A stretch of 64,000 bases of DNA from Alicyclobacillus sp. SO9 (lineage in GTDB: Bacteria; Bacillota; Bacilli; Alicyclobacillales; Alicyclobacillaceae): contig NZ_CP066339.1 in NCBI RefSeq assembly GCF_016406125.1, positions 4,960,001 through 5,024,000 on the forward strand. Direction: 5' to 3'. Numbering within the stretch: position 1 is the first letter of the stretch; every line of letters begins with the position of its first letter. Under the pieces are notes generated by a model. The model saw only the letters and a list, made by a program, of their open reading frames with translations, was not told where the DNA came from and ran no database searches. A program made the position numbers and the translations under genes. Positions 35,530 to 46,999 of the stretch are shown here, piece by piece.

Positions 35530-36696
35530 GTGGCTCAGTTGTCCAAGCTGCTCATTTTATCCGCCGCTTACGGCGAAGGTCATCAACAGGCTGCGTACGC
35601 CGTTCGCGATGCGCTGTCGTTGCAGAGTCCGGAAACCGAAGTCGTGATTGTCGACTTCGTTCGAATGGTTCATCCGCTTTTGGATTCCGTTGCAAGATAC
35701 TGTTATCTCAAAAGTGTCCAGTTCGCACCCTTGCTGTGGGACTGGTTTTATAAAGGTACAAGTAATCTATCTCCGTCTTCCATGATTCAAAAGAAGTTGA
35801 ACTCCGTTGGCATACACGCTTTGGAACGTCTGCTGACCGAGTCCAACCCGGATGTTGTGCTGTCTACGTTCCCCATTCCAGCTGGAGTCGTTTCGTTTTT
35901 GAAGCAACTTCGACGGACACAGGTCCCGCTGGCGACTATCATCACAGACCATGCCATTCACAGTCAGTGGATCCATCCGTTGACGACACGATATTTTGTT
36001 GGGTCCGATCACGTTCGCCAAGGCCTCATCCGCCGCGGCACAAGCCGCAGCAACATTTCCGTCACCGGCATTCCCATTCGCCCTGCTTTTGACGCTGCTT
36101 ATGACCGAAAGAGTCTTCAGGAAAAATACGGTTTGGACAAGAATCTGCCTACAGTCCTTGTCATGGGCGGTGCCTACGGCATCATGGGCGATATCAATCT
36201 GATTTGCGAAGAGCTGTTTAACTATCCAAAACCTGTGCAAGTGATTGTAGTCACAGGGCGCAACGACAGGATGAAAGCACAAATTGACGGCCTCGTTGCA
36301 AACGCGAAACAAACCGTAAAAGTCTATGGCTTCACGCAGGACGTTCACGAGTTGATGGGGGTCTCCGATATCGTACTGACCAAAGCCGGTGGATTAACCA
36401 TTTCAGAAGCCCTGGCCATGGAATTGCCAATGCTGTTATACCGCCCCATCCCAGGACAAGAAGTGCAAAACGCCGACTACTTGGTATCTGCAGGTGTTGC
36501 TGTACTAGCTGAGACTCGCCCCCAGGTCACAGACGCACTCCGTGATTTGTTGGTGGAAAACCCGCAGAAGCGCGAAAAAATGCGCCACATGACACGGCTC
36601 ATCCGCCGCCGTAACGCAGCAGGTAAAATTGCAGCGGAGCTCATGAACATGGCGGATGCAGTGGAGGTTCAAGCGCAGTACTCGTTCCCGGGGTAG
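35530..36696 (+). CDS. MGDG-synthase-like (GT28-type) glycosyltransferase
   Basis: A 388-residue GT-B glycosyltransferase. LSAAYGEGHQQAAYAVRDAL near residue 10 and NPDVVLSTFP near 105 form the MGDG_synth N-domain. The C-domain has GFTQDVHELMGVSDIVLTKAGG and SEALAMELPMLLY for nucleotide-sugar binding. Relatives such as UgtP add glucose or galactose to diacylglycerol, giving glycolipid anchors. B. subtilis YkoN is another relative, and the following deacetylase with a YkoP-like tail fits that context. The start is GTG with AGAGGTG upstream. The acceptor is not known. Confidence 0.85.
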   Translation: MAQLSKLLILSAAYGEGHQQAAYAVRDALSLQSPETEVVIVDFVRMVHPLLDSVARYCYLKSVQFAPLLWDWFYKGTSNLSPSSMIQKKLNSVGIHALERLLTESNPDVVLSTFPIPAGVVSFLKQLRRTQVPLATIITDHAIHSQWIHPLTTRYFVGSDHVRQGLIRRGTSRSNISVTGIPIRPAFDAAYDRKSLQEKYGLDKNLPTVLVMGGAYGIMGDINLICEELFNYPKPVQVIVVTGRNDRMKAQIDGLVANAKQTVKVYGFTQDVHELMGVSDIVLTKAGGLTISEALAMELPMLLYRPIPGQEVQNADYLVSAGVAVLAETRPQVTDALRDLLVENPQKREKMRHMTRLIRRRNAAGKIAAELMNMADAVEVQAQYSFPG

Positions 36697-36831
36697 GTCC
36701 CAAGGTAGGAACCGAGGTAATGCCCAGGGTATGTCCCGGGGTAGGAGTGCAGCGGCTTTTGGACACATCAGGAGCACTGCACAATACAATGACAGTAGAA
36801 AAACTGGTGGTCGTTGCTGGAGGGTTGTCTG

Positions 36832-38259
36832 GTGCCTCATCTTACTCTCATTACACTTTTGATACTGGCGCTTCTTGCTGGCCTCTTTCTGTGTTATGCA
36901 TTGCTTCCTGAAGCCCTGTTTCACTGGCTTCACATCGGCACATTTTATAAAGGATTAGATGCCGTACATGGTACCGTACGCGCTGTGTCACTCACCTTCG
37001 ACGACGGTCCCGATGAACGCTATACACCTGCCGTCTTGGATTGCCTCAGAAACTACAACGTGAGAGCTACGTTTTTTCTGGTAGCAGAAAACGCCCTGCA
37101 ACAGCCTGCACTGGTCCAGCGAATGATTAGAGAGGGCCACGAAATCGCATCTCACTCCTGCACACATCGCCATGCATGGTTACAAAATCCGTTCACTGTT
37201 TTTCAAGACGTTCGGGAGTCGAAAAGGATACTTGAAAATCTAACCGGACAACCCGTACGGTTTTACCGTCCACCATGGGGTGCCTTCTCGTTGGTCTCAA
37301 GACTCGCCATAAGAGCAGCAGGGCTTAAGCCTGTCTTGTGGTCCGGAAGGGCCATGGATTGGATGGAAAAGCAAACCGGCACCGCGGTAAGAAATAACAT
37401 GATTAACAGCGCCTGTTCAGGAGCAATCATCCTTTGTCATGATGCCGGCGGCGCCGAAGCCGCACCCGTCCGTACAATTGAAGCCTTGCCGGAAGCCATA
37501 GAGACGATTCAGGCCCTGCAGTACAGTTTTCAAACGGTGGGTGATCTGCACAATCAGAAACTTCATGAAACAAGACCGGCCTCGAAAGCTTCTCTGTACA
37601 AAACGTACCCTCTGCCAAGGCGATCATTGATTTTTGTGTGGAGGCTGGTGGAATGGGGCTTTACCCGGTTGTACAAGATTGAAAGCCTGGATGAAATATT
37701 CCGCTTCAACCGAACCGTATGGTCATTCGGACCGAGGCAATACACCTCTGCCCCTTCCCCTACCTCTGCCCCTTCCCATGCTTCTCCCCCTACCTCTACC
37801 CCCGCTGCAGCAAATCACGCTGCTCACTTGCTGCCTAAGCAAGCCCTGTTGCACGATGGTATGCCGGCTTTGGACCTCCACTTTCAAAACACAACTCTGG
37901 CGATGCTTTCCCAAGCAGATAACCCAAAGTCGCTGATAGGAGGTCTGAGACAAACTCGACGCGGGTTGCAACGTCTCGCAGCTTTGTTGCAGTATCACCC
38001 TGCATACCACGATATTCAAGCAATTACCGGAGTTACCTTGATCCACCGGGGAATCGAAACACTTGGATTTCATGTGGAAGACCTACCTTCCCACCGGGAA
38101 AGGCGGCGTTTGGAACGCTATATGCGCTTCCTAATGGCCCTGTACCACCCAGACGGAGTGCGCAGATTGAGACAGGGGCGACAAAGCCTTCACGTCAAGC
38201 ACGTATGGATGAGTCGGCAGGAACTCATCGATAGATACGGAAAAGCTGCTGCCACTTAG
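36832..38259 (+). CDS. Membrane-anchored polysaccharide deacetylase with YkoP-like C-terminal domain
   Basis: I chose the GTG at 36832, 8 nt after GGAGG, giving 475 residues. A signal anchor (about 3-25) precedes a NodB domain. LTFDDGPDERY holds the Asp dyad, EIASHSCTHRH the metal-binding HxxxH, RFYRPPWGAF motif 3 and ILCHDAGG the catalytic His. Such enzymes remove N-acetyl groups from wall or surface glycans. A Pro/Ser/Thr linker (about 305-325) leads to a C-terminal domain of about 150 residues resembling YkoP. It follows the glycosyltransferase by about 135 bp on the same strand and is probably cotranscribed. Domain confidence is high, substrate unknown. Confidence 0.85.
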   Translation: MPHLTLITLLILALLAGLFLCYALLPEALFHWLHIGTFYKGLDAVHGTVRAVSLTFDDGPDERYTPAVLDCLRNYNVRATFFLVAENALQQPALVQRMIREGHEIASHSCTHRHAWLQNPFTVFQDVRESKRILENLTGQPVRFYRPPWGAFSLVSRLAIRAAGLKPVLWSGRAMDWMEKQTGTAVRNNMINSACSGAIILCHDAGGAEAAPVRTIEALPEAIETIQALQYSFQTVGDLHNQKLHETRPASKASLYKTYPLPRRSLIFVWRLVEWGFTRLYKIESLDEIFRFNRTVWSFGPRQYTSAPSPTSAPSHASPPTSTPAAANHAAHLLPKQALLHDGMPALDLHFQNTTLAMLSQADNPKSLIGGLRQTRRGLQRLAALLQYHPAYHDIQAITGVTLIHRGIETLGFHVEDLPSHRERRRLERYMRFLMALYHPDGVRRLRQGRQSLHVKHVWMSRQELIDRYGKAAAT

Positions 38260-38309
38260 CACCATATAGAACAGATTCACCGGAGTGAAAACCCTTACTC
38301 CGCGCTCCG

Positions 38310-38326
38310 TGTCAGGTATTCTAACA
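38310..38326 (+). promoter_or_regulatory. TnrA/GlnR box upstream of amt
   Basis: TGTCA, seven bases, TAACA: an exact match to the TGTNAN7TNACA consensus bound by the MerR-type nitrogen regulators TnrA and GlnR. It lies about 87 bp before the amt start, suggesting induction under nitrogen limitation as for B. subtilis nrgAB. Confidence 0.7.
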
Positions 38327-38412
38327 AATTCTCTTGTTCCTCCACATGCCCCTTGGCATACTAAAACCACATCAAGTGAATTTTTGCAATGTTCAAGAGT
38401 GGAGGAATCCAA

Positions 38413-39735
38413 ATGCCAAACCCGTCCATTGTCACCGGATTGAATACGACTTGGGTTGTACTGACGGCTTCCATGATCTTTTTCATGGAAGGTGGGTTTG
38501 CGCTGCTAGAAGCGGGATTTATCCGCTCCAAGAACCACGTTTCAATCATTATGAAAGTATTCGCAGACCTGATTTTTGGGGTGTTCGCATATTTCTTAAT
38601 TGGATTTGGTTTAATGTTCGGAAAAAGTGCCTTCGGGCTCATCGGCACAAGCGGCTTCGCAATGCAGGGTGTTCTTTCCCATCTGCCGACAACCATTCCG
38701 CATCAGGCATTTTGGCTGTTCCAAGCCGCCTTTACAGTGGCTGCTGTCAGTATTGTCAGCGGCGCTGTAGCAGAACGGATGAACTTCAAGGCTTACGTAC
38801 TGTACGTGTTGCTGATGACAGCCATTATTTATCCTATCTCTGGACACTGGGTTTGGGGCAACCACGGGTGGTTGGCGCAGATGGGGATGAAGGATTTTGC
38901 GGGATCGACCGTAATTCACGCTATGGCAGGCTTTTCAGCCATGGTTGCAGCATCCATGATTGGTGCCCGAATCGGAAAATTTGGCACAGGTGAGAAGCCT
39001 CAGGCCTTCGCTCCCAGCAACCTGCCGTTGGCTGCTGTCGGAACCTTCGTCTTATGGTTTGGCTGGTTTGGATTTAATGCCGGCAGTACGCTCAACGCGC
39101 AGGCCGCTGACATTTCGCAGATTGCGATGAATACACTGCTTGCTTCCATCGCAGGCGGCGGAGCGGCAATGCTCTATACACTGTTCCGCGAAGATAAGGC
39201 GGATATCGGTGCTACGATTAACGGCATCTTGGCGGGGCTGGTTGCCATCACAGCAGGTTGTGCCTTTGTTGGATTCTGGAGTGCGCTTGTGATTGGCGCA
39301 GCTGCCGGTGTGCTGATGATTTGGGCTACGGGCTGGGTAGAGAAAATAGGCGTGGACGATCCCGTCGGCGCAGTCGCGGTCCACGGCGTCAACGGTGTCT
39401 TCGGCACCGTCATGGTGGGCCTGTTCGCACAAACAGGCGGCCTCTTAACAACCGGCCATTGGCATCTGCTCGGTGTTCAACTGCTCGGAACTGTTGTCGT
39501 GAGCCTGTGGGGGGTCGGTGCCACATTCGGATCGCTGAAACTTATCAATCTGTTTGTACCCCTGCGAGTGAGCCGCGAAGAAGAAGAAATCGGATTGGAT
39601 TTGAGTTCACACGGAACGGTGGCCACACACGTGGACTTGGGTGTTGTTTTCAGCCACGAGTGGCAAAAACACGCGACACCAGCAGCTCGACAAATGGCCA
39701 AAGCCTCTGCCATGACTTCAGAAGCCAGCGAGTAG
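38413..39735 (+). CDS. amt: Ammonium transporter Amt
   Basis: The ATG at 38413 has GGAGG 7 nt upstream (440 residues). An 11-helix Amt/Rh channel is expected. FFMEGGFALLEAGFIRSKN near 23 is the N-terminal signature, STVIHAMAGFSAMVAA near 168 holds the first pore His, and AVHGVNGVFGTVMVG near 315 the second. The C-terminal tail is longer than usual and ends TPAARQMAKASAMTSEASE. No glnK/glnB follows, which is unusual because most amt genes have a PII partner. A TnrA/GlnR box is upstream. Confidence 0.95.
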   Translation: MPNPSIVTGLNTTWVVLTASMIFFMEGGFALLEAGFIRSKNHVSIIMKVFADLIFGVFAYFLIGFGLMFGKSAFGLIGTSGFAMQGVLSHLPTTIPHQAFWLFQAAFTVAAVSIVSGAVAERMNFKAYVLYVLLMTAIIYPISGHWVWGNHGWLAQMGMKDFAGSTVIHAMAGFSAMVAASMIGARIGKFGTGEKPQAFAPSNLPLAAVGTFVLWFGWFGFNAGSTLNAQAADISQIAMNTLLASIAGGGAAMLYTLFREDKADIGATINGILAGLVAITAGCAFVGFWSALVIGAAAGVLMIWATGWVEKIGVDDPVGAVAVHGVNGVFGTVMVGLFAQTGGLLTTGHWHLLGVQLLGTVVVSLWGVGATFGSLKLINLFVPLRVSREEEEIGLDLSSHGTVATHVDLGVVFSHEWQKHATPAARQMAKASAMTSEASE

Positions 39736-39823
39736 CGCTTGCTGGCTCCCCGGGTAAACTGCCTTCGTCATGACGCCGCCAGTCTAGACACCGGCTCTAA
39801 CGGACTGTACAAACTACAACCCA

Positions 39824-39890
39824 ACTACACCAACTACACCAACTACACCAACTACACCAACTACACCAACTACACCAACTACAACCGACT
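39824..39890. repeat. 9-bp tandem repeat (AACTACACC)
   Basis: About seven perfect copies lie downstream of amt, followed by a degenerate copy. The repeat marks the left edge of the accessory island. It is non-coding. Confidence 0.85.
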
Positions 39891-39941
39891 GCGACGAACT
39901 GTTACGACCGGAGCGGCGTCTTTTGCCCTGTACTGAAATCA

Positions 39942-40289
39942 GTGCAGGGCATGCTCGTGTCCGCAGATGAAAAGCCCCCGATATGGTTCAATAAGACGCC
40001 CTCTGCTGACGTTTCACCTTCGTCTGAGGCGGAACAAGCGGTACAAGCAAGGCTCCGAGCTACTCACAAACTTACTCAGCAATTCGATGAGGCCCCCGCT
40101 GTCTTGGTACGGCGCAAAAATGCGTTTCAATCCCCAGCGTTGTTAAAGTTCATCGAGATGGTCCGGCCACTTACCCTCGAGAAATGGGCCAGTTTGGCGG
40201 TGCTGAGCATTTTTCGCCAGTACTTATCGACGGCAACATATACCTTGATGAGCCATTTTAGGTTGCCGGCCATTCCATACTACGCATAG
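39942..40289 (+). CDS. Hypothetical protein, unrecognised
   Basis: An open frame of 115 residues with no family I recognise. The N-terminal half is polar (SSEAEQAVQARLRATHKLTQQ). The C-terminal half is mildly hydrophobic. The ribosome site is weak. A 10-bp hairpin (39925-39950) ends right at the ATG at 39951, an alternative start. Its 3' end runs into the degraded intron reverse transcriptase on the opposite strand. It may be a remnant of a mobile element or spurious. Confidence 0.3.
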   Translation: MQGMLVSADEKPPIWFNKTPSADVSPSSEAEQAVQARLRATHKLTQQFDEAPAVLVRRKNAFQSPALLKFIEMVRPLTLEKWASLAVLSIFRQYLSTATYTLMSHFRLPAIPYYA

Positions 40290-40770
40290 TGCCCTCGAAG
40301 TATCTGGTTGATTTGGCGGGATTGCTCCTCAAGTGACTGGTGTCGAATTCTCCGCATCGTTTCGTGCACTTTCGAAGGACTACGCTTGATTCGTTGTTTC
40401 TCCATTTTCCTGCCCACCATAAAATTGCCCTTTCAATTCCGCGTGCAATAGTGGGTGAAGCCAAGGAAGTAAAGCGTTTCTGGCTTCTTCTTTCCCTTGT
40501 ATGATCCCTGTTTACTGGAGAATCTCCCAAATTCAATGAGCCGAGTCTTGCTGGCTTCGAGCTCAAGTTTAAACTTGTTTAATCGCAGATGCAGTGCCTT
40601 TTGGACTCTCAAAGCGTCACTTCGATATTGGAAGCACACAATGAAACCATCAATGTATCGAATGAGATAGGCTTCACCCCTCAGGCGCAGTTTTATCGTC
40701 TTTCCAAACCAAAGGTAGTGAGCCCAAAGTGGGAGTGCACATATATAGCGAAAATAGCCGTTGTTAAATA
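40258..40770 (-). pseudogene. Degraded group II intron reverse transcriptase/maturase fragment
   Basis: The minus strand from about 40765 encodes FRYICALPLWAHYLWFGK, then LRGEAYLIRYIDGFIVCFQY, LNKFKLELEASKTRLIEFG and KPETLYFLGFTHYCTRN. This is the finger-palm and early thumb region of bacterial group II intron reverse transcriptases. The catalytic YADD is YIDG here, so it is inactive. A stop follows at 40433, and further similarity continues in other frames to about 40260 (SPSKVHETMRRIRHQSLEEQ). The N-terminal RT blocks, the maturase and the endonuclease domain are missing. No intron RNA domain V was recognised. Confidence 0.8.
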
Positions 40771-40892
40771 GTAGGTAGTAGTTAGGAAGTCCTCTGTTTA
40801 TTCACCAAAGGCGGTCGCCGTCGCTACAGCGTCCTCATTTCATAACATATGGACATAGCTTCAAATAATCCCCATTTTGGAGGCAGACACAA

Positions 40893-41096
40893 ATGACGCA
40901 TAACGAAAAACTCATTCAGGCACTTTCTCAGACGCACAGGGCACTGCTTAACTGCTCGGAATGCCTTGATAATGTCAATGACCCGGTACAATACAATTGT
41001 CTTTCTACCATGTGTGAATCTCTCGCCAAACAAGCGAAAATTCTGAATCAAACCCTATTGAAAAAACAGAAGTCACGAAGAGAGGGATTAGAATGA
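40893..41096 (+). CDS. Small helical protein, first gene of the split-sigma operon
   Basis: A 67-residue, largely alpha-helical polar protein with three Cys, ending in a basic tail (LLKKQKSRREGLE). TTTTGGAGG lies 9 nt before the ATG, a strong ribosome site. Its stop overlaps the next start as ATGA, so translation is coupled to the sigma-like gene. I recognise no family. From its position it could be a regulator or partner of the sigma pair; that is inference only. Confidence 0.7.
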   Translation: MTHNEKLIQALSQTHRALLNCSECLDNVNDPVQYNCLSTMCESLAKQAKILNQTLLKKQKSRREGLE

Positions 41097-41467
41097 TGGA
41101 ATATACCGCGGAACAAGAAGTGGCTTGGTGTAAGAAAGTAATTAAGAACATTGGATTTACGCTATTGAGAAAGAGACAGCGGCTGTCACGTCACGAATTG
41201 TCCCTTGATACCCTTCAGAAGGCTGGAGTCCTGCCTGTCATAACGCAGTCATCTCCATATGACAGTGAACTCCCGTTTCATTCAATCGAGTGGCTTATGC
41301 TCTTTGAGAAGTTATTAAGCACAGATGAAAGATGTATTGTTCTCAATCTCTTCTGGTCTGGATTTTCACAACGCGAAACGGCCAAATTATGTAATTTAAG
41401 CCAATCGTCTGTGACTAGAAGTCTACACGTCGCGTTAACTAAGATAAGAAGGGCAGTGTTCCTGTGA
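41093..41467 (+). CDS. Sigma-70 region 4 protein (SigO-like subunit)
   Basis: A 124-residue protein. Residues about 75-122 (LLSTDERCIVLNLFWSGFSQ, then RETAKLCNLSQSSVTRSLHV) form a sigma region 4 helix-turn-helix for -35 recognition. No region 2 is present, which by itself would not support promoter melting. The next gene encodes a short region-2-like protein overlapping it by 4 nt (GTGA). The arrangement recalls B. subtilis SigO (YvrI) and RsoA (YvrHa), a two-subunit sigma factor. SigO is longer (about 180 residues), so this may be a distinct branch. The alternative is a phage-type ArpU/Xpf-like regulator. Confidence 0.75.
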   Translation: MMEYTAEQEVAWCKKVIKNIGFTLLRKRQRLSRHELSLDTLQKAGVLPVITQSSPYDSELPFHSIEWLMLFEKLLSTDERCIVLNLFWSGFSQRETAKLCNLSQSSVTRSLHVALTKIRRAVFL

Positions 41468-41688
41468 AGTGTACACCCGAACACGTACACACTCTCCTGG
41501 CTCAAGTCCGCCAAGGTTACTCGCCGGCAATTAGGGAACTATGGAAATGCTTCGCACCAGAAATTACAAACGTAGCGAAAATGGTTGATCAAAATGAACT
41601 CTACACCATATCAGATGAAATAAAACACCGATTCATTCTGAAAATTATCGGTCGAAAACCCAATTCTGAATCAGATCCGAATGAATGA
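41464..41688 (+). CDS. Sigma region-2-like short protein (RsoA-like partner)
   Basis: A 74-residue protein starting with GTG inside the stop of the previous gene. HTLLAQVRQGYSPAIRELWKC followed by FAPEITNVAKMV resembles the N-terminal helix pair of sigma region 2, the core-binding part. The sequence then diverges and ends in a polar tail. B. subtilis RsoA (79 residues) is the same size and lies directly after sigO. I infer that this protein supplies the core-binding function missing from the upstream subunit. Similarity is by pattern only; a generic helix-turn-helix protein remains possible. Confidence 0.6.
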   Translation: MKCTPEHVHTLLAQVRQGYSPAIRELWKCFAPEITNVAKMVDQNELYTISDEIKHRFILKIIGRKPNSESDPNE

Positions 41689-42021
41689 GCGTTTTAAGAT
41701 ACAGAGAGGTCAAACCGCGCGGCTTATCCCTCTCACATATCAACATAGGAGGTGTCTATTTATTACTAAATAGCGAAAGAGTTAGCGTTCGGCCGATGAG
41801 AAAAGAAAATGAACAAGATGACCTATAAGTGAAGCCCACCCCGTTCACCAACACTCTATAGCCTGGATTTTGAGACAAAGACAGTGCGTTCACTAAGGAT
41901 GCAGTTCATGATATTGCATGACCTATACGTTTCCCTAATCATTCTCCTCTGTGTTTTATAAGCAACGATTATTCTCAACGGTTGGCCAACCCGGTTTTAT
42001 AAATAAAGGAGGCAATTCGAT
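41689..42021 (+). promoter_or_regulatory. Leader region of the cysteine-rich gene pair
   Basis: This 333-bp gap lacks a gene. It contains a ribosome-site-like AGGAGG at 41750 followed by no standard start, a perfect 12-bp palindrome GGTTGGCCAACC at 41980-41991, and TTTTATAA-type -10-like elements near 41954 and 41994. The palindrome lies 30 nt before the next start and overlaps the likely transcription start region, so it could be an operator. Confidence 0.45.
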
Positions 42022-42495
42022 ATGACCTTATCAGCGTCGGAAGTCCAAGTCTATGTAGCAGACCCCACCGACATGGAAATTGCACTTGGTGCAGCTGCGA
42101 TTGCGGGAATTTCTCCTAGTAATATAATAGGAAATTTTGAGAGCACTTGGAACACCATCAGTAATAACGCTGCTTTAGTTATTGCGGCTGGCGGACCATC
42201 AAATACAGCTCTCTACCACAATCCGTGTGGCTGGACCAACCCAATTGGTGAAGCTGCAGGACACACTCCGTTCGCATATGCCAGCGAACCTCAAGATACT
42301 CTCCCAGGCGCAGATTATTATGAGAATGCGGCGGGAAATGGTGGATATGCAACAGCTAAACTCGTTGCCATGTTAGCTTATTATGCCGTCCACGGGAGTT
42401 ACCCATCAGGATATGGTTCTTTGCCAGCTCCGTCAGCAGCAGGTACTACTTGTGAGCAAAGAATGAGCAGTAACGTGTCTTGTAATTGCTACTAA
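42022..42495 (+). CDS. Leaderless cysteine-rich protein, paralog of the next gene's N-domain
   Basis: AAAGGAGG precedes the ATG by 9 nt. The 157-residue protein has no signal peptide. Residues about 8-130 align with residues 10-135 of the next gene: both share YxA...AGxSxxNxIGxF, an Ala/Val-rich stretch, a GG, then ALYxNPCGW and later TPFxY...AAG...YYA. It ends TTCEQRMSSNVSCNCY, with three Cys in the tail. No known family is recognised. The Ala, Gly and Asn-rich composition differs from neighbours. It is likely cotranscribed with the next gene (6-bp gap). Confidence 0.75.
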   Translation: MTLSASEVQVYVADPTDMEIALGAAAIAGISPSNIIGNFESTWNTISNNAALVIAAGGPSNTALYHNPCGWTNPIGEAAGHTPFAYASEPQDTLPGADYYENAAGNGGYATAKLVAMLAYYAVHGSYPSGYGSLPAPSAAGTTCEQRMSSNVSCNCY

Positions 42496-42501
42496 ACTGA
42501 A

Positions 42502-43668
42502 ATGGAGGGATATGAATTGGCTATTTCAACAAGCAACATTTATCTATATGCGGCCACTGCCGGGGATTTTAGAATGGCACAAGCCGCCGCGAGATTAGCT
42601 GGCGTATCGAGCGGAAATGTTATTGGTAGTTTCGCTGTTGCGTACAGCTTAGTTCAGGTCTCCTCGCAAAACTTTGTCCTCGCTGTAGGTGGAGCGGCGC
42701 TTTATGCACTATATTACAACCCCTGTGGTTGGGGCGGTTTCAGTGCAGGCAGTACGCCATTCAGCTATTACACATCAGCGCAGTGTAGCGCATTACCTAC
42801 TAATATGTTTATCAACGCGGCAGGAACAACAGCAGCAGACACTTTCTATCGTGTGATGGCATTGACGTACTATGCTATCAATTGTGCCTATCCGAATGAA
42901 TTTCCGAGTTCAAGTATGCCTGCCGGACTAACACCGCAAAACAGTTGTAAAGGAAATAGCGACCAAAGTTGCCCGTGTCCTAGCGGAGGTACCGGAGGAG
43001 GTTGCAGCTTTCCTTCTTCACCTCCGACTGCCTGCTCATCGAATCAAACAACGTTTATTAATAACTATTTGAGTTATGCAAAAACGGCATCGAATAAGAC
43101 GGGTTTACCGGTAAGTTTTATTCTTGGACATTGGGGCCTCGAAACAGCATGGGGAACATCAGCTGGATTACCGAGTTGTAACAATCCAGGCAATCTCGTC
43201 GTTTCAGGACAGCCAACGTGCTCTGCGTGCGGAGGTTGCGGAGTCTCATCGTTCTCAACCTTGACTAATGGCGTCAATGCCTATATTTCAGCCATGAACA
43301 ATAAATACCCATTTGTAAAGTGGGCATATGATAATTACGGGTTGAAAGAGGCATGTAAAGCCATTGGAGCTGGTTGTGAACCGGGGTCCGGATATACGGC
43401 TAACATCTATGCTACAGGGCGATATAACGGAGTTTATTGCGTTGTTAACGGATCTGACGAGGCCGTCTCCAACAACTGTTACATGACTTCAACCACAGCG
43501 GGTAACGGACAAACATACTATAGTTGTAGCCAAAATAGTGCCGGCTATGATGAAGGTGTGACACAATCGTCCTGCGTTAGCAGTTGTAATGGATGCGGAT
43601 GGGTTGGTTGTAGTTTATATTCTACCGTTACGTCGAGTTGCTTATCTCCATACGACTGTGTCTCGTAA
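42502..43668 (+). CDS. Cysteine-rich protein with glucosaminidase (GH73-like) domain
   Basis: A 388-residue protein. Residues 10-135 form the same domain as the preceding gene, including ALYYNPCGW. A Cys/Pro/Gly linker (SCPCPSGGTGGGC) follows, then a glucosaminidase-type domain (about 175-300). That domain has FILGHWGLETAWGTSAG, where the Glu is the expected catalytic acid, plus NPGNL, SFSTLTNGVNAYISAM and YPFVKW. The tail is very rich in Cys, Ser and Tyr (SSCNGCGWVGC), with roughly two dozen Cys in all. No signal peptide is visible, so how it reaches peptidoglycan is unclear: lysis, a holin, or deposition in the spore. Weak GGAGGG site; start could be the TTG at 42517. Confidence 0.75.
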   Translation: MEGYELAISTSNIYLYAATAGDFRMAQAAARLAGVSSGNVIGSFAVAYSLVQVSSQNFVLAVGGAALYALYYNPCGWGGFSAGSTPFSYYTSAQCSALPTNMFINAAGTTAADTFYRVMALTYYAINCAYPNEFPSSSMPAGLTPQNSCKGNSDQSCPCPSGGTGGGCSFPSSPPTACSSNQTTFINNYLSYAKTASNKTGLPVSFILGHWGLETAWGTSAGLPSCNNPGNLVVSGQPTCSACGGCGVSSFSTLTNGVNAYISAMNNKYPFVKWAYDNYGLKEACKAIGAGCEPGSGYTANIYATGRYNGVYCVVNGSDEAVSNNCYMTSTTAGNGQTYYSCSQNSAGYDEGVTQSSCVSSCNGCGWVGCSLYSTVTSSCLSPYDCVS

Positions 43669-43693
43669 ATTCCATCGGGTGTATAGATACTCC

Positions 43694-43737
43694 GGGCTGT
43701 TCCAAATACTAAGGCTGTCCCTTAAATGGAACAGCCC
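43694..43737. terminator. Bidirectional terminator between converging genes
   Basis: GGGCTGTTCC and GGAACAGCCC form a perfect 10-bp stem with a 23-nt loop, followed by TTCTT on the plus strand. It separates the cysteine-rich gene from the convergent lipoprotein gene. Confidence 0.75.
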
Positions 43738-43753
43738 TTCTTATGAACCGGAA

Positions 43754-44368
43754 TTAGTGTTTAGTCGGGGACACCCACTTTGGCCATTGATTATTCATTG
43801 GCCACCAGTACGCGCCACTACTTGTCGGAGTCTTGTAGTGTTTGAGTTTGTACCCCGGAAGCTCCTTCAGTAATGGAATACCTTTTGAGCTACGGATGCT
43901 AGTTATCAGTTGTTTATCTAGTTGGCGCTCTTGTTTAGGTGCATAATTCAGCATCTTCAAGGAGACTTTGGATTTCCATTTCCCCGTCTCTTTCACTAGG
44001 TTCTGCGGTGGTTCGATGGGGCCAACAGACTGTGCACGTAAAATTGCATACATCGCTTTGAGAATCGGCTGATTGAACACATACACGGGACGCGTATTGC
44101 CACTAGAGGAACTGTTGCTAATTTCGTTGGCTGAGCCAGTGCTGCCAGTGCTGTTACTGGAAGATTGTGCTTCGTTCGAAGTTTGTGAATTCGATGGGCT
44201 ATTTGTTGCTTGACCATTACTAGACGCGGTACTTGTTGCATTACTGGTATCGAGACTCTTATTTGCGGATGCATTTGAGTTAGTGGCACCCTTCGAGCCG
44301 CAGCCAGTGAGAACCAAGACCGACGTTCCCAATAACCCCAAAGCCAGCGCTGTTTTCGATATGTTCAT
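43754..44368 (-). CDS. Lipoprotein of the ECF sigma locus
   Basis: I chose the ATG at 44368, with AGAGAGGG upstream; an ATG 18 nt earlier has no ribosome site. The 204-residue protein has a lipoprotein signal (MNISKTALALGLLG) with lipobox LTGC near residue 22. A Ser/Asn/Thr-rich linker (about 28-95) then leads to a C-terminal part with ILKAMYAILRAQSVGPI and LPGYKLKHYKTPTSSGAYWW. No family is recognised. It is divergent from the ECF sigma gene, and both have ECF-type promoter matches, so it is likely a regulon member. Confidence 0.8.
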   Translation of the reverse strand: MNISKTALALGLLGTSVLVLTGCGSKGATNSNASANKSLDTSNATSTASSNGQATNSPSNSQTSNEAQSSSNSTGSTGSANEISNSSSSGNTRPVYVFNQPILKAMYAILRAQSVGPIEPPQNLVKETGKWKSKVSLKMLNYAPKQERQLDKQLITSIRSSKGIPLLKELPGYKLKHYKTPTSSGAYWWPMNNQWPKWVSPTKH

Positions 44369-44438
44369 GCAAGAACCCTCTCTCATTTATTAAGTATATT
44401 TGAGCCATCCCTGAATTGGTACGCTATTCTCAATGTAC

Positions 44439-44465
44439 GACGAAACAGCTAGATAAATTGTTACA
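44439..44465 (-). promoter_or_regulatory. ECF-type promoter of the lipoprotein gene
   Basis: On the minus strand TGTAAC (44465-44460), a 17-bp spacer and CGTC (44442-44439) match the general ECF layout, close to the sigma-M type TGCAAC-N17-CGTC. It lies about 70 bp before the lipoprotein start. Confidence 0.6.
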
Positions 44466-44507
44466 ACAATTTTCTCACCAGCGATACAAATAGGATGACA
44501 ATTATTT

Positions 44508-44534
44508 TGTAACAAAGTGCGGACTTCATACGCC
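44508..44534 (+). promoter_or_regulatory. ECF-type autoregulatory promoter of the sigma gene
   Basis: TGTAAC (44508-44513), a 17-bp spacer and CGCC (44531-44534) mirror the divergent promoter, sharing the -35 and spacing. It would start transcription about 25 nt before the sigma start, pointing to autoregulation. Confidence 0.6.
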
Positions 44535-44565
44535 TTAATTATAGAAGAAGGTGAGGAATGCAGAT

Positions 44566-45081
44566 GTGGATTTAAATCTAAGTGCCGCCGAAGCAACGCA
44601 ACAATTATACGAATTGTATAAGGACGACTTGTACCGCTACATCCGCTTCTCTCTTGGTGATCCACATGAAGCCCTAGACCTTGTTCAGGATGTCTTCATT
44701 CGAGTACTTCATTCTTGGGATTCCTATCGTGGAGAAGCGAAAGTGAAGTCATGGATTTGGTCTATCGCTCGAAATCGAATCATTGACTACACCCGAAAGC
44801 GTAAAAATCGAACAAGTGACAGCTTAGACGAACGATTTGACGTAGCCAGTTCAGACAGCAGTTATGGTGTTGTGGAATTGGAAACGGTGATTCGAAATTT
44901 ACCTAACAAATATCGTGAAGTTGTGATTTTGCGCTTGCTACAGGACTGGTCTACAGCAGATGCAGCCCAAATTCTGGGGTGGTCACAAGCTAAGGTTCGT
45001 ACAATGTTGCATCGTGCCATGAAAGAATTGAGAAGTGAACTGAAAGGCGTGAGAACAGAACAATGGAACCGCGGGCATTAG
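44566..45081 (+). CDS. ECF RNA polymerase sigma factor
   Basis: The GTG at 44566 (AAGGTGAGG, 9 nt upstream) gives 171 residues; a GTG at 44551 is the alternative. Region 2 is LYRYIRFSLGDPHEALDLVQ, then DVFIRVLHSWDSY and KSWIWSIARNRIIDYTRK. Region 4 is LPNKYREVVILRLLQDWSTA, then DAAQILGWSQAKVRTMLHRA. It resembles the SigM/SigW/SigX group that answers envelope stress. The following gene, overlapping by 19 nt, encodes a membrane anti-sigma candidate. Autoregulated promoter proposed. Confidence 0.9.
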   Translation: MDLNLSAAEATQQLYELYKDDLYRYIRFSLGDPHEALDLVQDVFIRVLHSWDSYRGEAKVKSWIWSIARNRIIDYTRKRKNRTSDSLDERFDVASSDSSYGVVELETVIRNLPNKYREVVILRLLQDWSTADAAQILGWSQAKVRTMLHRAMKELRSELKGVRTEQWNRGH

Positions 45082-46211
45082 AAGACGAAATGAAACAAGT
45101 ACTTGCACCTTTAAATCACATTACGCTGCCGCGAGAATCAGAGCAGAAGGTCCGTACCAATCTTCAAGATGCTATTCAAGATTACGAATCCGGATTAAAA
45201 CGTTTTGCTGGTTACAAAAGCCGGCGTAGAAATAGACTTTTCCCAGCGATGTCAGCAGCCGCCTTTGCGATAGCAGCAGCAGGAGTGACATATTACGGAT
45301 TATCAAATCTTGTAAACGGATCGAAACAACCAAGTACTGCGGCACATGATACCGGTTTGAGCAATATCAAATATACAAAACAGACGCTCCAAACCATACA
45401 GGGAACCGCAACGCAATCTGGTGTCTTAATGTATTTACCTCACAAGGTTTTGCCAGACGGTAAAGTTACTGTTGTAAAAAACGGCGGGAAGGGGTCTGCA
45501 ATTCTAGATTTTAACCGAATCTGGATCATCGAAAGCAGCCAGCCGATATCACCGCCACAGAGTCAATACATCTCCTCAAAAGAATTTGTAACGCTGCCAG
45601 AAAACAATCAAAGTACATTTTATAAGCTAAAAAGGAATAATGACGCATTGTACTTTAAGCAAGGAAAGACATACATTGCAATACAACATCTGCGGGGTCA
45701 ATTGCCAACCAAGCAGCAGCTTATTGCTATCGCGAGTTCGTTCAAAGGTGTACCGAATTCTACCCCTAAGATCGTCTTCGGAGCCGCTCAGTACACGCAC
45801 CAGCAACTTTCCCAAGTGAAATCGCAGACGAAACAGATTGGAACCGCACTTTATGTGCCTCACCTCTCTGCCAAAGGAGATGCATTAATTTCAATTCAAC
45901 GGGGAACCGGTACGTTTACAAGTGGTAAAACAGTAGAGTTGAAATTCCGTAAATTCTCACTCTTTGAGAGTGCTACACACATGTCGGTTCCAGGTGGAAT
46001 CAGCAGCGAAAAAAACGTGCAGATAGCGAATGATAAGAGCGGGCGTTTTGCCATCGCAGAGTTGAAACGAACAAACGGAAATATTCAATCTGCGTCGCTC
46101 ATCACCTTTAAGCAAGGGAACACATTCATACAGATTCGGAGCAGAAACGGAACCGTGCTACCGCAAAAGGCATTAGTGCGCATTGCGAACTCGTTATATA
46201 AAGTCAAATAG
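45063..46211 (+). CDS. Membrane anti-sigma factor candidate with duplicated extracytoplasmic domain
   Basis: A 382-residue protein. The cytoplasmic N-terminus (about 55 residues) should bind the sigma factor, followed by one membrane segment (about 58-80, FPAMSAAAFAIAAAGVTYYG). Two related extracytoplasmic units of about 140 residues follow. Each has a YLPHKVLP- or YVPHLSAKG-type start and a FKQGKTYIAI or FKQGNTFIQI strand followed by IAxS. These resemble DUF4367-type domains found on anti-sigma factors. The gene overlaps the sigma gene, suggesting translational coupling. No zinc-binding HxxxCxxC motif is present. Confidence 0.75.
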   Translation: MEPRALEDEMKQVLAPLNHITLPRESEQKVRTNLQDAIQDYESGLKRFAGYKSRRRNRLFPAMSAAAFAIAAAGVTYYGLSNLVNGSKQPSTAAHDTGLSNIKYTKQTLQTIQGTATQSGVLMYLPHKVLPDGKVTVVKNGGKGSAILDFNRIWIIESSQPISPPQSQYISSKEFVTLPENNQSTFYKLKRNNDALYFKQGKTYIAIQHLRGQLPTKQQLIAIASSFKGVPNSTPKIVFGAAQYTHQQLSQVKSQTKQIGTALYVPHLSAKGDALISIQRGTGTFTSGKTVELKFRKFSLFESATHMSVPGGISSEKNVQIANDKSGRFAIAELKRTNGNIQSASLITFKQGNTFIQIRSRNGTVLPQKALVRIANSLYKVK

Positions 46212-46239
46212 TAACAGAACTCAACAACAGAACTCTTAA

Positions 46240-46570
46240 CACTCAGTCTTCGGACGTATGTCAAGACCATTCTCCAATACAACGAGCACCTGTCCCAACT
46301 TAAAAACAGATAGATGCCCTTGCTCAAGATATCGAAAGTATAAGATTATCCAGTCTATCCCCGGTATTGGTCAGAAAACCGTGGCAACGATTATCTCTGA
46401 AACCGGAGAAATAGACCGGTTGAATCATCCTAAGAAACTAGTGGAGTTTGCCGGTGTAGACCCGAGTGTCCTCTCGTCTGGCAAGTTCGCAGTAACCTTC
46501 AGCCGCATTAACAAACGCGGTTCAAGCAGACTGAGGCATGTGCTCTATGAAGCCGCTTCATGTGGGTTGC
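46240..46570 (+). pseudogene. IS110-family transposase C-terminal remnant
   Basis: The segment encodes YKIIQSIPGIGQKTVATIIS, then LVEFAGVDPSV and RINKRGSSRLRHVLYEAASCG, the Transposase_20 domain. Upstream similarity continues in other frames (HLSQLKN, LAQDIE-like), and the N-terminal DEDD domain is missing. It differs from the element at 8.8-10.5 kb. It abuts and has truncated the thioredoxin-like gene on the other strand. Confidence 0.8.
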
Positions 46571-46999
46571 GAAAAACAGGCCGTAACAAGCTCAGGGTTG
46601 TCCAGCAACACGGGCTTGTTAAATTGTGTTTTCTGACGAATTTCTTAACACCAGATACTGTATCCATGGTGTCCACACCAACAAAGGTTATGATGCCTTG
46701 GTACTGCTTGCTTAACTTCTGCAGTTCTGGGGCTTCTTTGTTACAGGGAGCACACCATGATGCAAACGCATTTAAAATCACTGGATGCCCCCTTGCCAAC
46801 AGAGAGTTCAACGAGACCTTTTTATTTGTGTTTAGCTCCGTCATGGAAAAGCTCGGAGTCTCTCTTTTCTTGGAGACCTGTTTGCTTGCGATTTTTTGAT
46901 CACGTTTACTTTACTAGCCACGTTGACCCGCAACGGTGAACTACACACGCTTACAGTCAGCGCTAGGAGAGCTGTGCTCGAAATCAAGAACCTTTTCAA
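46545..46999 (-). pseudogene. Broken thioredoxin-like (TlpA/ResA type) lipoprotein
   Basis: The start is TTG at 46999, 7 nt after GGAGGTG, encoding a lipoprotein signal (LKRFLISSTALLALTVSVC). The thioredoxin part, in a shifted frame, reads ETPSFSMTELNTNKKVSLN, then VILNAFASWCAPCNKEAPEL with the redox CxxC. The shift lies near the run of six T at 46892-46897 on the plus strand. The C-terminus after VRKHNLTSPC is replaced by sequence antisense to the IS110 remnant. It would have been an extracytoplasmic thiol-disulfide oxidoreductase. Confidence 0.75.

Follow-up and report, generated by a model that had tools for sequence, protein, structure and literature searches.

A predicted two-subunit sigma factor at the head of exchangeable hydrolase-like/lipoprotein cassettes in Alicyclobacillus and its relatives

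Do three small overlapping genes of Alicyclobacillus sp. SO9 encode a sigma factor in two pieces, and if so, what does it switch on? The genes, here called g1, g2 and g3, lie in a stretch of 64,000 nt (GCF_016406125.1, NZ_CP066339.1 positions 4,960,001-5,024,000, forward strand), hereafter the window. An earlier note, made from the sequence alone, had described three open reading frames (ORFs) overlapping as ATGA and GTGA, the second with sigma region 4 and the third with an isolated N-terminal part of region 2, and had proposed a split sigma factor of the SigO/RsoA type led by a 67-residue protein. In the ORF list of the window, the g1/g2 and g2/g3 overlaps are as described. Our comparisons give good support to g2 and g3 as a two-subunit sigma70-type factor split inside domain 2. 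Furthermore, in Alicyclobacillales, g1-g2-g3 appears to head a mobile cassette composed of the sigma operon, one or more leaderless hydrolase-like effectors and a convergent lipoprotein. With a probability of about one half, we favour the reading that the split sigma factor is the private switch of a recombining lysin/antidote cassette.

That g2 carries sigma region 4 is borne out by three profile collections: it matched Pfam Sigma70_r4_2 (E 1e-5, 25.5 bits, cut-off 25.7) and NCBIfam TIGR02937 (E 1.9e-8, profile positions 54-164 of 165, under the model's cut-off), and in PHROGs it matched an RNA polymerase sigma factor. Given this PHROG match, we rejected the alternative that g2 is a phage regulator acting alone. 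Phage records matching a g2 relative number 19, the best ten of them at 30-41% identity, and scans of viral contigs yielded no confirmed relatives.

As a single sequence, g3 had no match in Pfam (HTH_16 included), NCBIfam or PHROGs. Among nine g3-like proteins of other loci, seven match Pfam HTH_16 at E<=0.1, five above the cut-off. The earlier note had suggested an HMM-HMM comparison with sigma profiles, which was run in hhalign with alignments of six g3, three g2 and seven g1 relatives against 19 RsoA-like proteins and 12 full-length sigma factors. The RsoA-like set came originally from a Pfam HTH_16 search, of which L145-L165 were taken and L139-L144 were not, and the full-length set consisted of 11 of the 12 sigma factors matching a g3 profile (L047 left out) and the extracytoplasmic function (ECF) sigma factor of the window. 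The g3 profile matched the RsoA-like set with a probability of 96% (E 1.8e-9, 57 columns) and the full-length sigma factors with 97% (E 7e-11, columns 11-67 of 210), both target sets having been filtered with a g3 profile containing one HTH_16 member, which the g3 alignment used in hhalign excludes. The g2 profile matched the full-length set with 97% over columns 91-198 of 210, and the control pairs g3-g1, g3-g2, g3-holin and holin-sigma all stayed below 1%. With region names assigned by us from the sigma alignment, g3 spans approximately regions 1.2-2.2, as foreseen for an isolated N-terminal part of region 2, and g2 starts at approximately 2.3/2.4. Because successive parts of sigma are covered by g3 and then by g2, the break lies inside domain 2. 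The matches to RsoA-like proteins and to full-length sigma factors ruled out that g3 is a plain unknown protein. A PDB search with the g3 profile (HTH_16 member included) gave SigW residues 5-52 at E 0.015, a weak match in the correct place. The structure model of g3, built from the single sequence, has a mean predicted local distance difference test score (pLDDT) of 67 and a predicted TM score (pTM) of 0.44, with helices at residues 5-16, 20-40, 43-47 and 51-61, and Foldseek returned for it one match only (E 7.5).

The proposed SigO/RsoA type of split is supported by these profile-profile tests together with a gene order that is usual in Bacilli. Of 29 HTH_16 loci, the best-scoring ones from other genomes of the class, 20 match the g3 profile, and in 26 a region-4-like ORF immediately precedes the HTH_16 gene on its strand; Pfam HTH_16 matches were also found in B. 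subtilis. SigO-RsoA (YvrI-YvrHa) of B. subtilis is the only two-subunit sigma factor that the available excerpts describe (PMC8103513, PMC10141391, PMC10028694), and AND-gate behaviour is given for it (PMC10028694). Like SigO-RsoA, which according to an excerpt has sigma4-type and sigma2-type subunits on two proteins with the sigma4 gene first (PMC8103513), the g2/g3 pair follows this layout, and the g3 family matches RsoA-like proteins. Unlike SigO-RsoA, g2 is small (124 aa, compared with a SigO given as 22.5 kDa in the text at hand, PMC10141391), g1 leads the operon, and the neighbours are hydrolases and a lipoprotein instead of oxdC-yvrL/yvrJ; none of oxdC, yvrL and yvrJ was seen beside g2 and g3 among the ORFs of 36000-46500 (by eye, with Pfam for 16). 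In addition, the HTH_16 loci of other Bacilli showed no instance of the promoter-like motif of the Alicyclobacillales units, described below. The cassette may be seen as a variant of the two-subunit sigma factor, to which a third gene has been added and which heads exchangeable hydrolase/lipoprotein cassettes. HTH_16 pairs of the L139-L145 kind, presumably Tn916-like, share the HTH_16 gene directly beside a region-4-like ORF (7/7 loci), whereas this ORF is weakly similar to g2 (E 1e-5 to 2.5e-4) and the g3 profile found no match in these loci.

The window's own genome contains two further region-4/region-2-like pairs without g1, at L064 5586-6194 (G000:C1 near 4,894.6 kb) and L065 5177-7203 (G000:C1 1,385.2-1,387.2 kb), and the region-2 genes of both match Pfam HTH_16. 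Similar Ala/Ser/Thr-rich proteins follow a third split-pair type in this genome (L065 7224-7628) and in G002 (L066 6602-6973).

The operon is not a chance arrangement, since the order g1-g2-g3 is kept in 10 of 13 clear g1 loci, window included, and the ratio of nonsynonymous to synonymous differences (pN/pS) is 0.21-0.69 in the 29 listed pairs of at least 38% identity, many of which have saturated synonymous sites. The 13 loci do not include a fragment at the beginning of a G022 contig. By this measure, g1, g2 and g3 appear to evolve under purifying selection. Complete operons were found in the window, on the ALC3 plasmid (G020), in G022, G052 and G012, and in five units of a plasmid of Alicyclobacillus sp. 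TC; the incomplete loci are G043 with a broken g3, one G012 unit with a g1-g3 fusion and no g2, and G030. In TC units 1 and 3 (NZ_CP044435.1 near 104.3 and 112.5 kb), g3 has a GTG start and is missing from the public gene table, as are the g1 and g3 frames of the ALC3 unit (NZ_CP066785.1 near 91.4-92.3 kb, L137); a plasmid gene table lacking such frames is known to be incomplete. An effector comes next in nine of the ten complete units, and in the tenth (G052) a glutaredoxin gene is followed by the contig end. A convergent lipoprotein with a lipobox is present in seven of the nine effector-bearing units (window, one G012, five TC), and in the G022 unit the convergent ORF is truncated by the contig end. 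The earlier note did not mention the companions of the sigma operon, the hydrolase-type genes at 42022-43668 and the lipoprotein at 43754-44386. PADLOC found no defence families among 8 proteins.

The effectors fall into several types. In the window, effB matches PF01832 (E 2.6e-6, just below the cut-off) and a PHROG endolysin (E 9e-7), and effA consists solely of the N-domain that it shares with effB; where the sequences align, it is 57% identical to effA of G001 and 37% identical to the effB N-part. PF01832-like effectors also occur in TC unit 2, at the cut-off, and in TC units 0 and 3, with E 0.03 only, whereas those of G022 contig 70, two of G012 and TC unit 4 resemble the Rv2525c glycoside-hydrolase-like family PF08924, and the remaining effector types have no Pfam match. 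A crude test of hydrophobicity found no signal-like start in 17 of 19 effectors, the exceptions being effA of the window and of G001, and found one in all 12 lipoprotein-side genes. The AlphaFold model of effA, built from two sequences, has a mean pLDDT of 65.5 and a pTM of 0.69 and gave no Foldseek match at E<=0.001. In VIA-align, its first three rows were wall-binding domains of the phage endolysins CTP1L and CD27L, with Z scores of 5.4, 5.4 and 5.2 that lie below the clear level (79-80 residues, root-mean-square deviation 2.9-3.1); neither Foldseek nor a sequence profile found a CTP1L-type domain in effA or the effB N-domain. In TC units 0 and 2 (L138 4703-4945 and 11148-11390), a glutaredoxin gene separates g3 from the effectors, and in G052 (L025 285-512) such a gene follows g3; its product may keep the cysteine-rich effectors reduced inside the cell.

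How effectors and lipoproteins change is best seen on plasmid p1 of Alicyclobacillus sp. TC (NZ_CP044435.1, L138), where five tandem units occupy ~98.9-117.3 kb. Units 0 and 2 are 99.9% identical in DNA over 2151 bases, from g1 to where the effB N-domain stops. Across what is left of effB and the greater part of the lipoprotein there is no DNA match, after which identity returns to 97.9% over 194 bases that cover the lipoprotein signal peptide and flank. At the protein level, their effB C-domains are 36% identical over 80 residues, and nothing is detectable between the lipoprotein C-parts. Units 1 and 3 show 98.4% identity as far as the start of the effector and 95% identity beginning at the lipoprotein signal peptide. 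This mosaic is the pattern of exchange between constant arms: the C-parts face each other within conserved flanks, so that a single double crossover would replace the two together. In front of unit 0, there is a second region-4 gene (L138 2882-3393), itself preceded by a 54-aa ORF that has no useful match to the g3 profile or Pfam.

Lipoprotein similarity and effector similarity coincide more often than permutation predicts. For this comparison, the shared N-domain and the signal peptides were cut away from 18 hand-picked pairs (153 combinations). At E<1e-3, four of seven lipoprotein-similar combinations were also effector-similar, with 0.64 expected by permutation (p 0.0025); the corresponding numbers were four of five at E<1e-5 (p 0.0003) and six of seven at E<1e-2 (p 0.00005). 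For example, the window pairs with TC unit 2, with 85% identity over 233 aa of the effector C-domain and 56.5% over 138 aa of the lipoprotein C-part.

Between g3 and the effector, relatives of the window carry a motif of approximately nTCAAAAT-N16-18-(G/T)TAAAGAGTAGAGGG. A pattern derived from it has 12 matches in 550,077 bases, all before an effector, glutaredoxin or holin gene (block-shuffled mean 0.2); as the pattern was built from these sites, just its absence elsewhere is informative. With a matrix that left out the tested locus and copies judged near-identical (the G020 and G001 sites are alike, yet were treated as separate groups), the expected site ranked first in 9 of 10 loci, and in the remaining one (L025) a new site, located between two sigma-like genes further upstream, outscored it by 0.1. 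The expected sites listed score 23-33 and other places at most 17.4, units 0 and 2 of L138 being outside the best four rows of that listing. In the HTH_16 loci of other Bacilli, a single score exceeded 19 (19.2), below the maximum of 19.9 in shuffled 10-kb sequence. In units of the G022 type, the motif overlaps the final codons and the stop of g3, whereas in G020, G001, G052 and TC unit 0 it comes after the stop, and this difference in position indicates that the DNA itself is conserved. G001 has an extra site adjoining a g3 remnant (L061). In single folds, a stem-loop after the motif has z <= -2.6 in 7 of 13 cases and >= -1.34 in 3 of 13, with -8.5 in TC unit 0.

A holin-like protein (PHROG holin, E 1e-5) has matches at 15 places in the order, nine of which adjoin split sigma genes; six of these nine built the profile, and of the nine places not used as seeds, three adjoin split sigma genes and six do not. 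TC unit 0 also carries such a gene. In three genomes that belong to another family of the order, a holin-like gene immediately follows a dnaJ-like gene (named by eye) and is remote from split sigma matches (L129 5400-5744, L130 5037-5381, L131 6264-6542).

The leading protein, g1, is not part of the sigma factor, since its profile scored 0.08% against both the RsoA-like and the full-length sigma sets, nor is it a known family, with just weak scattered matches. Of the 59 genomes of the order, 8 have it, one of them (G056) by a weak match that was set aside, and it occurs in 11 of 398 genomes of the class, six of which belong to the order and five of which are weak; two of these five, viewed as raw translations, showed no cassette. 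Residues T14, H15, A17, L18, C24 and others are invariant in seven members, pN/pS is 0.54-0.69 in window pairs, and g1 immediately precedes g2 in 11 of 13 loci. The 67-residue leader of the earlier note is a real conserved family that belongs to no recognised one, and its candidate roles are those of a switch or adaptor, as considered there, of an anti-sigma factor or of an effector chaperone. In TC units 1-4, the first residues of g1 are replaced by lipoprotein-flank sequence, which implies either that the N-terminus is dispensable or that the first copy alone works. G030 lacks g2 and g3 in this locus and has g1 directly in front of an effector, a slight hint at a link between g1 and the effector. 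Most likely, we infer, g1 acts as an adaptor or brake on the sigma switch.

Considering these results together, we envisage that g2 and g3 would be produced together by translational coupling behind g1 and, split between regions 2.2 and 2.3/2.4, would both bind core RNA polymerase and fire a promoter beside the operon. The leaderless peptidoglycan hydrolase (effA and effB in the window) would then be expressed, be exported through a holin or leave by lysis of a few producers, and kill related cells by cutting their walls, and immunity would come from the surface convergent lipoprotein that protects its owner. The sigma head would stay constant while the C-parts of effector and lipoprotein are swapped. 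More tentatively, such cassettes may be weapon arrays between bacteria, in which recombining, plasmid- or island-borne leaderless hydrolases and their cognate convergent lipoprotein antidotes each have a three-part switch; the two sigma halves would here form an AND gate, and g1 would be a new class of third, sigma-associated subunit.

Parallels to this arrangement exist. The clostridial UviA/UviB/Bcn5 and TcdR/TcdE loci are described, in the portion of the source available, as combining a single-chain (group V) sigma factor, a holin and a leaderless product, Bcn5 being plasmid-borne (PMC9527704). Like these loci, the cassette has a dedicated sigma gene adjoining a leaderless product, a holin in part of the relatives and, as with Bcn5, a plasmid location in some units, that of ALC3 among them. 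Unlike them, its sigma factor is made of two chains of the RsoA-like lineage, its product is itself hydrolase-like, a convergent lipoprotein and exchanged C-parts are present, and the window has no holin. The best reading of this comparison is that the cassette would work like UviA-UviB-Bcn5 without homology to it, using machinery of the SigO-RsoA type. With polymorphic toxin/immunity cassettes, it shares a constant N-part and a C-part exchanged together with the specificity part of its partner, a property found among the relatives and not in the window alone; it differs from them in that the partner is a convergent lipoprotein, a dedicated split sigma factor stands at the head, and the products are wall hydrolases in which no secretion-system domain was seen. 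A literature search on split sigma factors, UviA/holin and Alicyclobacillus bacteriocins returned no title describing this cassette, and the words holin, immunity and lipoprotein are not present in the accessible part of the alicyclobacillin 24 paper (PMC13176240).

Several observations weigh against a lysin/antidote cassette, and the best argument, which is one for a housekeeping role, is that the N-domain is widespread outside cassettes. An effA-type N-domain is found in 35 of 59 genomes of the order, usually once, in frames of ~380-530 aa. At 11 such loci, g1, g3 and holin matches were found in none and a g2-profile match in three, one of which (L121, 131 aa) lies 0.5 kb upstream. C-domains resembling those of cassette effectors are present in some of these proteins, and one such pair lies at 38 kb in the window's genome; it has a glucosaminidase-like C-domain, and no lipoprotein was seen next to it. 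Together with the leaderless effector starts, these mostly single genes would suit a module for autolysis or mother-cell lysis, in which the hydrolases open the producer's wall, the split sigma factor times this event and the lipoprotein restrains the enzyme, without the killing of any rival. Alicyclobacillus forms spores, and the leaderless hydrolases CwlC and CwlH of B. subtilis open the producer's own wall. However, plasmid arrays, swapped C-parts and matching lipoprotein types fit conflict better than housekeeping, and g1 is patchy (8/59 genomes). We regard such a module as the most probable of the rivals, albeit rather unlikely.

Further objections concern the pairing of effector and lipoprotein. 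The effector C-domains of TC units 0 and 3 are 61% identical while their lipoproteins are unmatched, the lipoproteins are dissimilar in 10 of 14 effector-similar combinations, and some matching is to be expected from physical linkage alone. In 14 of the 18 lipoproteins a lipobox could be identified; of the other four, one is cut by a contig end, one has TGC by eye, and those of G037 and G043 have none, the G043 partner moreover not being adjacent to the effector. The ALC3 unit has transposases in place of a convergent lipoprotein. A second rival is a stress sigma factor of the SigO kind, answering acid or wall stress, with hydrolase and lipoprotein as wall-repair targets or chance neighbours. 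It would agree with the homology of g3 to the RsoA family and with the acid stress given for SigO-RsoA in the excerpt available (PMC10141391), but the sigma operon and unrelated effector types travel as one repeated unit and no oxdC- or yvrL-like gene was noted by eye in 36000-46500; we hold this reading to be improbable. Finally, the motif is not recognisable in the window, with a score of 4.4 at the expected place and the best scores (<=18.0) elsewhere, and the window's genome has 0 matches to the holin-like gene at E<=0.001. These two absences, along with just broken frames upstream, would be expected of a stranded, decaying copy that has lost promoter, holin and upstream sigma pair while its genes are still open. 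On the other hand, all six cassette genes of the window are open with their overlaps intact, and window pairs have a pN/pS of 0.42-0.69, with the reservation that their synonymous sites approach saturation. We consider decay marginally less probable again than a stress role, and we retain the private switch of a lysin/antidote cassette as the favoured explanation.

Features of the cassette in the window (positions are those of the 64,000-nt stretch)
Feature	Position	Strand	Basis
g1, 67-aa helical protein, first operon gene	40893..41096	+	ORF, ATG start
g2, predicted sigma region 4 subunit, 124 aa, N-terminus with a piece of domain 2	41093..41467	+	ORF, ATG start; Pfam, NCBIfam, hhalign
g3, predicted sigma domain 2 N-terminal subunit, RsoA-like, 74 aa	41464..41688	+	ORF, GTG start; hhalign of g3 family
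Weak stem-loop where relatives carry promoter motif and stem-loop	41698..41736	+	Fold z -1.9
effA, 157 aa, leaderless, shared N-domain alone	42022..42495	+	Identity to G001 effA and effB N-part
effB, leaderless, cysteine-rich, shared N-domain and glucosaminidase-like C-domain	42502..43668	+	PF01832, PHROG
Convergent lipoprotein, candidate immunity protein for effB or restraint on it	43754..44386	-	Signal peptide, lipobox LTGC

Other features surround the cassette. Downstream, an ordinary ECF sigma factor gene (176 aa) overlaps with a gene of 382 aa whose product seems to have a single membrane stretch (44551-46211); the latter has no Pfam family and probably encodes an anti-sigma factor or regulator of the former. 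It is followed by a piece of an IS110-type transposase (46258-46899, PF02371 E 2.8e-22). Just upstream of the sigma operon, a short frame on the minus strand (40433-40639), in which a Pfam search finds nothing, resembles what we take to be a remnant of a group II intron reverse transcriptase; TC unit 2 contains an intact annotated ltrA. At 39821-39883, the 9-base repeat CCAACTACA occurs in seven perfect copies.

In summary, split sigma factors are repeatedly found as the unchanging head of hydrolase cassettes that are themselves exchangeable, and thereby provide a natural series for testing what splitting buys, a candidate benefit being tight, AND-type control of a dangerous enzyme. The same units also form a series for asking what role the third protein has. 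Furthermore, they point to unstudied pairs of hydrolase and lipoprotein in acid-loving spore formers.
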